NCBI RefSeq assembly: GCF_001942335.1
Contig: NZ_MKKH01000015.1
Location: forward strand, 1 to 64,000
DNA length: 64,000 bases
Source of the DNA: Cellulosimicrobium sp. CUA-896
Lineage (GTDB): Bacteria; Actinomycetota; Actinomycetes; Actinomycetales; Cellulomonadaceae
Reading direction: 5' to 3'
Below, one piece after another: positions 5,680-12,129 of the stretch (positions are counted from its first letter, which is position 1; the number at the start of each line of letters is the position of its first letter). The notes beneath the pieces are model-generated. The model ran no database searches. It was not told the origin of the DNA and was given only the letters and a program-made list of their open reading frames with translations. The translations under genes and the position numbers were made by a program.

Positions 5680-6314
5680 TCAGACGACGCCGTAGAGGCG
5701 GTCCCCGGCGTCGCCGAGCCCGGGCACGATGTACGCCTTCTCGTTCAGGCGCTCGTCCACCGCCGCCACGACCACGTGGACGTCGACCCGCTCGCCGACG
5801 GCCTCCTGCACGACCTCCAGCCCCTCCGGCGCCGCGAGCAGGCACACGGCGGTGACGTCGCGCGCCCCCCGGGCGAACACGTAGTCGATCGCCGCGACGA
5901 GCGTGCCACCCGTCGCGAGCATCGGGTCGAGCAGGAACACGTGCGGCCGGTGAGGTCGTCGGGCAGCCGGTTCGCGTACGTGACCGCCTCGAGCGTCTCC
6001 TCGTCGCGCTGCATGCCGAGGAACCCGACCTCCGCCGTCGGCAGCAGGCGCGTCATGCCGTCCAGCATCCCGAGACCCGCGCGCAGGATCGGCACCACGA
6101 GCGGGCGCGGCTCCGCGAGCCGCACGCCCGTCGTCGTCGTGACCGGCGTCTCGATGTCGTGCGGTTCGACCCGCACGTCGCGCGTCGCCTCGTACGCGAG
6201 GAGCGTCACCAGCTCGTCGACGAGCAGCCGGAACGTCGGCGACGCCGTCTCCTTGTTCCGCAGGACGGTGAGCTTGTGGGCGACGAGGGGGTGGTCGGCG
6301 ACGTGCAGGCGCAT
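5680..6314 (-). CDS. upp: Uracil phosphoribosyltransferase
   Basis: It makes UMP from uracil and PRPP in pyrimidine salvage. The protein starts [20 protein letters not shown] and carries the UPRT hallmarks: [27 protein letters not shown], the PRPP-binding segment [17 protein letters not shown], and the C-terminal uracil-binding [15 protein letters not shown]. Length is about 211 aa, normal for the family. One base is missing near 5950, where GRHVFLLDP is interrupted. A TACCGT -10 box (6322-6327) ends 7 nt before the ATG, so the mRNA is probably leaderless. It is divergent from tadA, and a uracil/xanthine permease gene lies at 37.6 kb. Confidence 0.93.
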
Positions 6315-8356: not shown

Positions 8357-10331
8357 TCAGGACGTGGTCGTCGCGTCGTCGGTGTCCGTCGTCGTGTCGC
8401 TCTCGCGGCGGCCGCCACCCATGCCGCCCATGCCACCGCCCGACCACTCGCCCGCCGTCACGGGCGTCGAGGCGCTGCCGGTGGTGACGGTGTAGGTGTC
8501 GCCGCTCGTCACGTCAGGGGAGGAGAAGACGACGTTCGCCGTGTCCTTCGTGACCGTGTACGTCGCGAGCTCCGTGCCGTCGGCCGCCGTGATCGTGACG
8601 GTCCCGCCGGCGCTCGCGGAGACGTCCGTCGCGAGCCAGCCCTGCGCGGAGTCCGCGGAGGGTGCCACGGCCATGCCCGCGCTGCCCGCGGCGAGCAGCG
8701 TGCCCCCCGTGACCTCGAGCGTGCCGCCGACGTCGAGCGCGCCGTTCCCGTCGTTCGTCGGGCCCTGGACGACCGTGTCGCCGCCGCTGACGATCAGCGA
8801 CCCGTTGGAGTCCAGGCCGTCGCCCCCCGCGTCCACGGTGAGCGTCCCGCCCGAGATCGTCAGCGTCGAGCCGTCGTCGCCCTCGAACCCGCCCCCGCCG
8901 CGCCCGCCCGGCGGCATCTCGCCCTCGGCCGGGGGCTCGGGCATCTCGCCGTCGGCGGGGGGCTCGGGCATCTGTCCGTCCGCCGGCCGATCGGGCCGTG
9001 TGCCGTCCTCCGGCGCGCCGGCAGGCGGCTGCGCCGTCCCGCCCGCCGCGCCGTCGGTGCCCGCGGTGGCGCCGTCGGTCGTGCCGGTGCTCGTGGTGCC
9101 GCTGGTCGCGTTGAGCCCGTCGTCGCTCGCGGTCACGTCGACCGTGCCCCCGGCGACGGTGATGTCGGCGCCCTCGATCCCCTCGACGGAGGTCGTGACG
9201 GTGAGCTCGCCGCCGGAGACGGTCACGTCGCCGTCGGCGTGCACGCCGTCGTCCCCGACGCGAGGGACACCGACCCGCCGGAGATCGCGACGGCGCCGTT
9301 CGCGTGCAGGCCGTCGTCGGCGGCGTCGACGGTCACGGCCGCGTCGTCGCCGACCACGACGCCCACGTCGCCCTTCAGACCCTTGGCCGACGCGTCGTCC
9401 GCGACCGTCTCGCCGGCACCGCCCGCCGCGACGACGTCGAGCGTGCCACCGGACACGATGACGTCGGTCACGGCCTGGACGCCGTCGTCGCCGGACGTGA
9501 TCGTGACCGACCCGCCGCGCAGGTCGACGAAGCCGAGCGCCTCGTCGCCGTCCTCGGTGGATTTCAGCCCGTCGGCCGCGGCCGTGACGTCGAGCGTGCC
9601 GCCCGTGACGACGAGGTAGTCCTTGCCCCGCACGCCGTCGTCGCCCGCGTCGACCGTGAGGTCGCCGCCCGCGATGACGAGGCCGTCCTTGGAGACGATG
9701 CCGTCGGCCGCGTGCGACGTCACGGCCAGGGTCCCCGACCCGCCGATCAGCAGGTCGGCGGTCGAGAACAGCGCGCCGTCGGGCTCGCCGTCGGCGCCTG
9801 ACCGGAGTACGTCTCGGCGTCGGTGAGGGTGTTCGCGGACCCGTCGGCGAGCACGACGGCGACCCGGTCGGCGTCCTGGACGTCCACCGCGGCGTTCGTC
9901 GTGCCCGTGACCTCGGCACCGTCGAGGACGAGCTGCACGAGCCCTTCCGCCGCGGAGTCGACGACGACCTGACCCTCGAGCGTGCCGCTCAGCACGTACG
10001 TGCCCGGGGCGGTGACGGTCACGGTGGCGCCGTCGACGGTCACGCCGCTGCCGTCGGTCACCGTGGCGGTGTCGCCGTCGAGCGCGACGGCGACGGCGGA
10101 GGCCGCGTCCCAGGCGAGGTCGGCGTCGTCGACGGCGACGTCGGTGTTGTCGGCCCGGGCCTCGTCGGGGGTCAGGCCCGCGACGGCGGTCGAGGCGACG
10201 GTCGTCGTCGCCGTGGTCGCGGCGGTGCCGTCGCTCTCGGTGGCGGCGGTGCCGCTCAGCAGGGAGCAGCCGGCGAGCGCGGCCGCGGCCGCGGCGGCGG
10301 TGAGGGTGGCGAGGGGGCGGCGGATGCGCAT
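8357..10331 (-). CDS. Lipoprotein with Cthe_2159-type beta-helix carbohydrate-binding domain
   Basis: It starts MRIRRPLATLTAAAAAAALAGCS, a lipoprotein signal with an LAGC-type lipobox, so it is anchored outside the membrane. The rest is a long run of short repeats rich in Gly, Asp and Thr (GDDGV, SGGTLDV, AADGLKS, SGGSVTI), typical of the carbohydrate-binding DUF4353/Cthe_2159 beta-helix family. A Pro/Glu-rich insert with EMPEPPADG repeats sits about two-thirds along, and the C-terminus is GGGMGGMGGG-rich. Two bases are missing, near 9255 and 9797. It is the last gene of a three-gene operon: its ATG overlaps the VTC stop by 1 nt. Confidence 0.82.
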
Positions 10332-11214
10332 CAGAGGCTCCTGTCGTCGGGGTGCCCGGCGGTGCGGGCGGGTGCGGTGAGGCCGGGGTCGAGGTGGCGG
10401 CGGATGACGCGGCGCCACGGACCGTCCGGCAGGTCGGGGCGCAGCAGCGCCAGGCCGGTGCCGTACTTGGAGATCCGCTCCGGCCGGTGGCCGTGCCGCC
10501 ACAGGAGGCGGTCGAGGGCGGACGGCGTCGACCCGCCCTTGGTCTCGACGACCACGACGTGCGGGACGGCGAGGGTGACGGCCCGTCCGGTCGGGCGGGT
10601 GGTCCCTGCCCGGTCGGTGCCGAGCCGCCACGCCAGCCCGGTGTCGACGGTGGCGCGCGCCCCGCCGTCGGGTCCCGGCAGGTGCAGGGTCGTGCGGCGG
10701 TAGCGAGAGACCAGGCCGGACTCGAGGAGGAGCCGGTCCGCGGCGGGGACGCCCTCGGCCACGAGCGCGCGGGTGACGAACGCGCCGCCGGGGCCGAGCG
10801 CCGTCGGGCACCCCGCGTGCTCCGCGCGCTGCTTGAGCGTCGTGCCACGGGCGGCCCGCGTCTTGACCTCGAGGAAGCTCTGGCCCGAGTCGAGGTAGGT
10901 CCGGGTGCGGACCTTGAACCGGCGACGGCGCCGCGTCGCGGTGAGGCGGAACGAGGCGAGGTCGGGCGTGTCGAAGTACACGGACTCGTAGCCGAACTGG
11001 CGGACGCCGTCGATCTCGAGGACCCGGGCGCCGCCCGTGCGGGCGAGCGTGTCGAGGACGGCGGTCGCGTCGTCGACCCCGAGGACGTACTTGCGGTCCA
11101 CGCGCGCCAGCAGGCCGCGGACGCCACGAGCTCGTCGAGCGCGATCCCGTCGAGCGGGTGGAGGGCCGCGCGCACGAGGTCGTGCGCGGTCGCGAGGCGG
11201 GTGGGCGCGGTCAC
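10331..11214 (-). CDS. VTC-domain protein (polyphosphate polymerase-like, TTM fold)
   Basis: The VTC domain belongs to the triphosphate tunnel fold. The expected charged motifs are present in order: VDRKYVLG, FKVRTRTY, the ExK motif in SFLEVKTR, LLESGLVSRYRRTTLHL, VVETKGG and ISKYGTGLALL. In yeast VTC4 this domain makes polyphosphate from ATP; bacterial members of these operons are poorly characterised. The GTG at 11214 overlaps the DUF4956 stop by 4 nt. A base is missing near 11124, in a run of C before LLARVDRKY. Length is about 294 aa. Confidence 0.85.
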
Positions 11215-11885
11215 GCCGAGGCCCCGACGTGGGCGCGGGCGGGCGGCGCGGGTGCGACGTCGGGCGCGGTCGGCGCCGCGGCGTCGGCCCGGCCCTCGGC
11301 CCGCGCGGTCACGCCGGAGCGACCGGACCGGCGCGCCGCACGCCCCGGGGCGCTGAAGCGCACGTCGACCCAGGTCGTGTCGTTGACGAGGTCGACCCGC
11401 TGGACGCTCACCCCGTGGACGCGCGCGCCGAGGAGCTGCTCGAGGTGCGCGACGAGTGCCTCCTCGTCGACGAGCGCCCGGTCGAGGACGATCGTCCGGC
11501 TGCGCGCGCGGCGCAGGACGCGCTGGTGGTCGGCGGCGGCCATGACGGCGACGACGAGCGCCGAGCCCGCCACGGACAGCCACCCCGTGGTGGCGCCGAG
11601 CCCGCCGAGCAGGCCGAGCGCCAGGGCCGCGAAGTAGTACGCGACCTCGGTCTGGGACAGCTCGGTCGAGCGGAGCCGGATGATCGACAGGACGCCGAAG
11701 AGGCCGAGCCCGAGCCCGGCGCCGACCGCGCTCGACGCGAGCGTCGCGGCGACGACGAGCACGCCGACGTTGACGCCGAGGTACGCCACCACGAGGTCGC
11801 GCCGGCGGTGCCGGGGGAAGTAGAGGCCGAGGGCCAGGACGGCGACCGCGACGAGGTCGACGACGTAGAGCAGGGGCTGGGACAC
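11211..11885 (-). CDS. DUF4956 integral membrane protein
   Basis: The N-terminal ~130 residues form about four membrane helices (LLYVVDLVAVAVLALGLYF; YLGVNVGVLVVAATL; GLGLGLFGVLSIIRLRS; YYFAALALGLLGGLG), with the conserved FGVLSIIRLRSTELSQTEVAYYF segment of DUF4956. A cytosolic tail follows with a ferredoxin-like part (LEQLLGARVHGVSVQRVDLVNDTTWVDVRF) and an Ala/Pro-rich end. The GTG start has GGGAG 7 nt upstream. It is the first gene of the operon with the VTC protein and the beta-helix lipoprotein. Confidence 0.85.
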   Translation of the reverse strand: MSQPLLYVVDLVAVAVLALGLYFPRHRRRDLVVAYLGVNVGVLVVAATLASSAVGAGLGLGLFGVLSIIRLRSTELSQTEVAYYFAALALGLLGGLGATTGWLSVAGSALVVAVMAAADHQRVLRRARSRTIVLDRALVDEEALVAHLEQLLGARVHGVSVQRVDLVNDTTWVDVRFSAPGRAARRSGRSGVTARAEGRADAAAPTAPDVAPAPPARAHVGASA

Positions 11886-12086
11886 GGGGCGGCTCCCGGG
11901 GCCGGGGCGCTGGGCGCCGGTGGACGGTGACAGGTCCAGGGAAGGGCCGGTGCCTATGCGTCCGCTGTGGAGGCCGCAGGGCGCGCGTATGAGTGCCGTT
12001 CACCACGCGGACCCCTCGCGTTCACCGGGGCGGACGCCGGGTGTGACGTGGACCTCGCCGGACAGCCGTGGGAGGCGGGCGGCGAG

Positions 12087-12105
12087 TGATGTTAGCCTCA
12101 CCTAA
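12087..12105 (+). promoter_or_regulatory. DtxR/IdeR-type iron box over a -10 element
   Basis: TTAGCCTCACCTAA is the core of a 19-bp site that matches the DtxR/IdeR consensus at about 16 of 19 positions. A TAGCCT -10 box (12093-12098) lies inside it, so Fe-loaded DtxR would block RNA polymerase. It sits 25 bp upstream of the siderophore-interacting protein gene. Confidence 0.85.
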
Positions 12106-12129
12106 GACGGCCATCGACGAGAGGCAGGC

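Follow-up and report, generated by a model that had tools for sequence, protein, structure and literature searches.

A near-obligate DUF4956-VTC gene pair with an exchangeable surface partner at a Cellulosimicrobium locus and in other Actinomycetota

In a stretch of 64,000 nucleotides from Cellulosimicrobium sp. CUA-896 (contig NZ_MKKH01000015.1, positions 1 to 64,000; the whole stretch is called the window here), we analysed a module of three genes, which lie on the minus strand in the order DUF4956, VTC, Cthe_2159. They encode a membrane protein, a triphosphate tunnel protein and a beta-helix lipoprotein. The window genome is available as a 3.7 Mb draft assembly of 78 contigs with a completeness of 83.2%, and the nearest named locus to the window on our VTC tree comes from Cellulosimicrobium. 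The features are as follows; numbers with L denote loci and numbers with G genomes of our samples.

11885-11211, minus strand: DUF4956 membrane protein; PF16316 with E 2.4e-60, 203.5 bits against a cut-off of 30.6; GTG start, frame intact
11214-10331, minus strand: VTC (triphosphate tunnel) protein; PF09359 with E 5.5e-22; frame broken near 11114
10331-8357, minus strand: Cthe_2159-type beta-helix lipoprotein; PF14262 on three pieces, lipobox LAGC; broken near 9797 and 9256
11211-11214, minus strand: overlap of the DUF4956 stop with the GTG start of VTC, 4 nucleotides (GTGA), read from the sequence
10331, minus strand: overlap of the VTC stop with the ATG of the lipoprotein gene, 1 nucleotide, read from the sequence
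11886-12129: divergent intergenic region with a conserved block by DUF4956 and an iron-box-like site by the siderophore-side gene, from an alignment of 14 genus rows

The two overlaps are those that an initial annotation, made from the sequence alone, had reported, and the E-x-K and SKYG motifs that it ascribed to the VTC protein are present in the window frame as LEVKT and ISKYG. In the third gene PF14262 matches with E 2e-49 (168.7 bits) and 1.5e-8 (34.7 bits; cut-off 25.8 bits) and on a third piece at 9801-10034 (E 7.6e-24), while the LAGC lipobox lies in the first piece of the gene. A Pfam scan of the window piece 10331-11212 found VTC alone and no SPX domain, and an NCBIfam scan of the three module proteins gave no useful family name.

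The distribution of the genes was studied in 149 evenly drawn Actinomycetota genomes and in 59 genomes of relatives, the window genome being included in both samples, and in 14 named control genomes. Beyond Actinomycetota, genomes were sampled solely as controls, and kinship inflates every count. VTC was found in 16 of the 149 Actinomycetota genomes and DUF4956 in the identical 16, always adjoining; the distribution is patchy, the module being absent from most sampled genomes. With the window genome left out, identical sets of 15 among 148 genomes have a chance of 7.6e-21 if the genomes are assumed to be independent, kinship being uncorrected. Among the relatives each family occurs in 28 of 59 genomes, and the sets differ by G057, which is weighed below, and G001, where VTC is located at a contig start and DUF4956 was not seen. 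The same three of the 14 controls (Bacteroides ihuae, Corynebacterium glutamicum and Methanosarcina acetivorans; adjacency unassessed) have both VTC and DUF4956, and these also match CotH (two, one of them C. glutamicum) or Cthe_2159 (one). The Bacillus subtilis control has a CotH match without VTC or DUF4956.

The VTC tree contains two deep clades, one with DUF4956 first in 38/38 loci and the other with VTC first in 10/10 loci. Since the orders are opposite and the genes still adjacent, the pair has outlived an inversion of its order. A stop/start overlap of 4 nucleotides is possible in 36 of the 38 relative loci that have DUF4956 before VTC, and the genera sharing the pair otherwise differ in their neighbouring genes. 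The module linkage is thus conserved across genera, beyond chance; conserved linkage in relatives had been set beforehand as a test of the initial annotation, and strong linkage was found. We conclude that DUF4956 and VTC are a near-obligate pair. Genome G168 carries two separate DUF4956-VTC pairs (L077, L078) with a CotH match adjoining each, and at L070 (G154) both the VTC and the DUF4956 match contain an internal stop (TAG, TGA), from draft errors or decay.

The third position of the module was counted in 43 VTC loci, with the window left out and the partner sought within 5 kb of VTC; DUF4956 was seen in 42 of them, and the genus of the window supplies 14. A Cthe_2159 protein was present in 25 loci and a CotH kinase-like protein in 13, both together in none and neither in five. 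Three of the 13 CotH proteins (G034, G088 and one G168 copy) are divergent, matching just part of the profile. Six additional loci gave five with Cthe_2159 and one with CotH. Both kinds of partner occur in both deep VTC clades; on the tree, the Cthe_2159 label set against all other rows needs three changes, of which the starred branches force at least two, the tree program having warned of long branches joining at the deep split and of a bootstrap that had yet to converge. The surface partner of the pair is therefore exchangeable, Cthe_2159 or CotH, an alternation that the initial annotation had overlooked.

Cthe_2159 itself is rare (7/149 Actinomycetota genomes, the window genome included), and of the six other genomes having it five carry the pair, adjoining in three (Fisher p 3e-5, kinship uncorrected). 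The lipoprotein of L049 matches the solved Cthe_2159 structures 4peu/4phb with E 1.5e-40. Proteins of this family are reported, in the passages available of PMC6712302, to bind cellulose and polygalacturonate, and the CotH proteins of L035 and L054 carry the cellulose-binding domain CBM_2. Both partners can therefore be extracellular carbohydrate-binding proteins.

Several loci have features of their own. The CotH protein adjoining the pair in L071 and L072 is a double-domain protein of 1230-1248 residues, and in L071 the pair also adjoins glycosyltransferases and an epimerase. In L069 and L074 genes that by eye are response-regulator-like and histidine-kinase-like lie divergently upstream of VTC-DUF4956-Cthe_2159. 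L067 (2108-9972) holds VTC, DUF4956, CotH, a hypothetical gene, HEAT and a chitin-synthase-like gene of the glycosyltransferase family GT2, an order that resembles the one reported for NELoc-2 (see below).

The initial annotation had treated the three genes as whole frames, which in the window does not hold for VTC and the lipoprotein. A tblastn search with the intact proteins of relatives located the breaks at ~11114 in VTC and at ~9797 and ~9256 in the lipoprotein gene. In nucleotide alignments with L049 and L051 the window lacks one base at every one of these sites; against L045 both lipoprotein deletions are seen, and at 11115 the net difference is +2, which shifts the frame in the same way. 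The lipoprotein gene of the window is scattered over three frames, so that the surface lipoprotein of ~650 residues that had been described agrees with the size of the family and with the lipobox but has no such open frame in the window. Its counterparts in L045, L049 and L051 have open frames of 661-678 residues, counted from the lipobox start. The lipobox pattern gave no match in the L032 lipoprotein, yet its frame is open. Further one-base deletions against all three relatives (L045, L049 and L051) lie near 5944 and 12787, within genes that we named by eye as uracil phosphoribosyltransferase-like and siderophore-interacting-like, respectively; the same gap listing also has many gaps that cancel pairwise or fall between genes. 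As the relatives are intact and other window genes are broken likewise, the frame breaks are probably assembly indels of an indel-prone draft. Phase variation or a pseudogene was rejected because of the similar breaks in other window genes. Another one-base deletion against relatives lies at ~4436, within an apparent gene. Protein analyses used intact relatives, and the window sequence was left unmended.

A profile built from 15 diverse VTC rows matched yeast Vtc4 with E 9.1e-22, and below E 0.1 it found solely chains of the VTC complex. The VTC protein of L032 (Cellulosimicrobium cellulans), which is intact, was modelled with AlphaFold from nine rows, with a predicted local distance difference test score (pLDDT) of 86.9. 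The best Foldseek match of the model is Vtc4 (3g3r, E 6.6e-12), with ygiF at E 3.0e-9. In the VIA comparison it aligns with Vtc4 3g3r at Z 17.2 (root-mean-square deviation (rmsd) 3.2, 216 residues aligned), with ygiF at Z 14.6 (rmsd 3.0, 190 aligned) and with AtTTM3 at Z 12.7 (rmsd 3.2, 180 aligned).

Fifteen residues are invariant in the 15 rows: R1, K5, K62, R64, R66, E78, K80, K89, R140, R151, D155, E186, K188, S212 and K213. These include basic residues of the tunnel, the Glu that binds metal and the SK motif. In Vtc4 the tunnel and metal residues are K200, R264, R266, K281, K294, R361, R373, E426 and K458. The correspondence with Vtc4 is residue by residue in the N-terminal part and by motif alone for the C-terminal E-x-K and SK. 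A marker of hydrolases of the TTM (triphosphate tunnel) fold has been described: according to passages of PMC4641920, four acidic residues (Glu) of AtTTM3 are basic in Vtc4. All 15 rows have an invariant Arg at -4 from the catalytic Lys and an invariant Lys in E-x-K, and the position matching Glu-90 is K89, probably basic (matched by motif). At the sequence level the marker leans to a polymerase without settling the question.

The DUF4956 protein has four to five hydrophobic helices overall: four stretches pass the hydropathy threshold, and the AlphaFold model places helices at residues 3-25, 29-49, 53-72, 78-96 and 101-119 (pLDDT of this block 55-67). They are followed by a C-terminal beta-alpha-beta-beta domain that is ferredoxin/ACT-like (block pLDDT 81-90). 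The charged residues R25, H26, R28, R70 and R72 are invariant in 16 rows, and E75 and E80 are conserved in at least 90%. Foldseek found no match for the model at E 0.001, and the top VIA row (Z 6.1), a chain from an entry on a ribosome release factor, was taken as unrelated. A relation to MgtC is claimed for the streptococcal DUF4956 protein SIR_1592 in the passages seen of PMC12345266. In our searches the MgtC profile PF02308 reached E 0.25, below the threshold, in one of six DUF4956 proteins, and hhalign of DUF4956 against two MgtC proteins gave E 0.12 with a probability of 0.5%, which is not significant. In two further papers DUF4956 figures, in the passages seen, solely as a gene listed in expression data.

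Upstream of DUF4956, in the divergent intergenic region (11886-12129), a block ACTCAyAC near DUF4956 is common to the 14 genus rows. A perfect CTGTG-N5-CACAG near DUF4956 was seen by eye in 12 of the 14 rows; the window and L045 are those that do not have it. On the side of the siderophore gene lies a TTAGGTGAGGCTAAC-like sequence, which is iron-box-like. Iron control as a general clue to the module was rejected, because the family of the siderophore-side gene was found in genus loci alone.

Part of the module has been described before, inside Pel loci (PMC7112168, PMC12345266, each in the passages available), which the initial annotation had overlooked. cotH, a polyphosphate polymerase gene and a DUF4956 gene are there accessory genes beside pel, and Pel loci with a CotH-type set are listed for streptococci, clostridia and bifidobacteria (PMC7112168). 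In Streptococcus intermedius, deletion of DUF4956 or CotH cut aggregation by more than 50% in 10% ASM and altered Pel levels, and mutants lacking any of the three accessory genes still make Pel (excerpts of PMC12345266). As far as these excerpts go, the authors of this 2025 study found the three-gene synteny nowhere outside the Pel locus. Our 13 VTC-DUF4956-CotH loci, in genomes without PelG above the cut-off, are at odds with this. None of the 44 genomes, that of the window (83% complete) included, gave a match above the cut-off for PelG (PF16933), the sole Pel gene tested. A match below the cut-off was given by G057 alone (20.8 bits), and of the 14 controls Thermotoga maritima alone matches. 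NELoc-2 of Clostridium perfringens comprises VTC, 'tubulin', CotH, HEAT and a chitin-synthase-like gene (passages of PMC2879425 and PMC11677781); judging from the gene order, its 'tubulin' genes may be DUF4956. A polyphosphate review, in the part seen, maps VTC domains across eukaryotes. The Cthe_2159 version of the module was not met in the literature searched, partly as passages.

We tentatively favour, at somewhat less than even confidence, the explanation that the pair is a membrane-bound polyphosphate synthase of the Vtc4 type, in which VTC is coupled to DUF4956 and which serves a surface partner that binds carbohydrate. DUF4956 and VTC would form a complex at the membrane, where VTC, as a tunnel enzyme whose fold and residues resemble Vtc4, would make polyphosphate on the cytosolic side, from a nucleotide triphosphate. 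DUF4956 would anchor VTC, and its ACT-like domain would probably regulate it. The complex may serve an extracytoplasmic partner, here Cthe_2159 and elsewhere CotH, that sits on or holds extracellular polysaccharide, and the two kinds of partner may share one task. Conceivably, the product crosses the membrane. Polyphosphate synthesis by VTC is our inference from the predicted model and the conserved residues. The initial annotation had proposed a system making an anionic polymer and displaying or capturing it at the surface; the polymer making is kept, as polyphosphate, VTC being closer to Vtc4 than to TTM hydrolases, but the display or capture stays a conjecture. A bolder version, which we consider unlikely, is a prokaryotic two-gene counterpart of the VTC machine, in which VTC would make polyphosphate at the membrane, DUF4956 would sense a metabolite and pass the chain outside, and either Cthe_2159 would hold the chain or the CotH kinase, without ATP there, would spend it as phosphate source.

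A number of observations weigh against a polyphosphate synthase. Of the 44 module genomes 39, that of the window among them, also have the usual polyphosphate kinase, PPK1, and the literature searched in part gave no biochemistry of a bacterial VTC member. Two Vtc4 entries (5iiq, Z 14.3; 3g3t, Z 13.7) rank under ygiF in VIA, and the membrane block of the DUF4956 model is too weak for showing a channel. Five of the 43 loci (G030, G044, G050, G163 and G202) have neither partner, the downstream side of G202 running off the contig. In G057 (L083, 7394-9768), the sole clear break of the pair, a Cthe_2159 lipoprotein comes directly after DUF4956, VTC being absent from between the two and having no match elsewhere in that genome. 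No change of aggregation is reported, in the excerpts of PMC12345266, for deletion of SIR_1593, the VTC gene of S. intermedius, whose product may thus be dispensable there.

The main rival, possible but on balance doubtful, is that the pair has an accessory, regulatory role in retaining exopolysaccharide, in which DUF4956 and the surface partner would fasten polysaccharide and VTC would merely bind a ligand or regulate. It would account for the lowered aggregation, with Pel still made, on deletion of DUF4956 or CotH, and not of VTC, in S. intermedius (PMC12345266, as excerpted). It also agrees with the polysaccharide genes that can adjoin CotH-type loci, in Pel loci (PMC7112168, in part) as well as in L067 (GT2 and HEAT) and L071 (glycosyltransferases and epimerase), and with the CBM_2 domains on two CotH proteins and the carbohydrate binding reported for Cthe_2159 (PMC6712302, in part). 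However, VTC is missing from the pair in one clear case alone (G057), and no tunnel residue varies over the 15 rows, which argues for catalysis. Moreover, PelG is above the cut-off in none of the 44 genomes, and by eye, no profile scan having been made, no polysaccharide synthase was recognised among the genes conserved next to the genus loci.

Catalysis could also be of the opposite kind: VTC may be a TTM hydrolase, either a tripolyphosphatase or a nucleotide triphosphatase, which supplies or damps a signal that DUF4956 senses through its ACT-like domain. The TTM families of similar fold, ygiF (Z 14.6) and AtTTM3 (Z 12.7), are hydrolases, and the marker position at -2 from the catalytic Lys is D/E in 15/15 VTC rows, as in hydrolases (PMC4641920, in part), which also speaks against a polymerase. 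The best matches in fold and sequence are nevertheless to the Vtc4 polymerase, every row has Arg at -4, and every row has Lys where the hydrolase E-x-E has its second acidic residue; we regard a hydrolase as quite improbable. That the gene set is a chance neighbourhood retained through recent common descent appears very remote. Many of the loci are closely related (14/43 from the genus of the window), and shared descent inflates the counts, but the pair is adjacent in two deep VTC clades, in opposite orders (38/38 and 10/10) and among different neighbours.

As far as the literature searched goes, bacterial proteins with a VTC domain owe the name polyphosphate polymerase to homology. In the sampled phylum VTC is almost invariably coupled to a single membrane family, which offers a concrete complex for study, and the swapped surface partner and the occurrence without PelG add to it. 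The module could explain how polyphosphate or phosphate transfer is placed at the bacterial cell surface, and what CotH kinases draw on outside the cytoplasm.

The module resembles several known systems in part. With the polysaccharide-binding beta-helix protein Cthe_2159 (4peu/4phb) the third gene shares the family PF14262, whereas the window member is a lipoprotein in an operon with VTC. NELoc-2 likewise has VTC with CotH, and L067 shows the series VTC-DUF4956-CotH-hypothetical-HEAT-glycosyltransferase; in contrast, Cthe_2159 takes the place of CotH in the window, and no such glycosyltransferase or HEAT gene was seen by eye beside the module. In the Pel accessory genes (SIR_1592-1594), DUF4956 and VTC also adjoin and are accompanied by an extracytoplasmic partner, but the window has Cthe_2159 for CotH, and PelG was not found in its 83%-complete genome. 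Vtc4 of yeast has an SPX sensor, of which none was found in the window VTC, and the membrane part of the yeast complex is of the Vtc1 type, while here it is a separate DUF4956 gene with an ACT-like domain. What is shared with the yeast VTC complex is the TTM fold, the tunnel residues of Vtc4 and an enzyme coupled, here by gene linkage, to a membrane protein.

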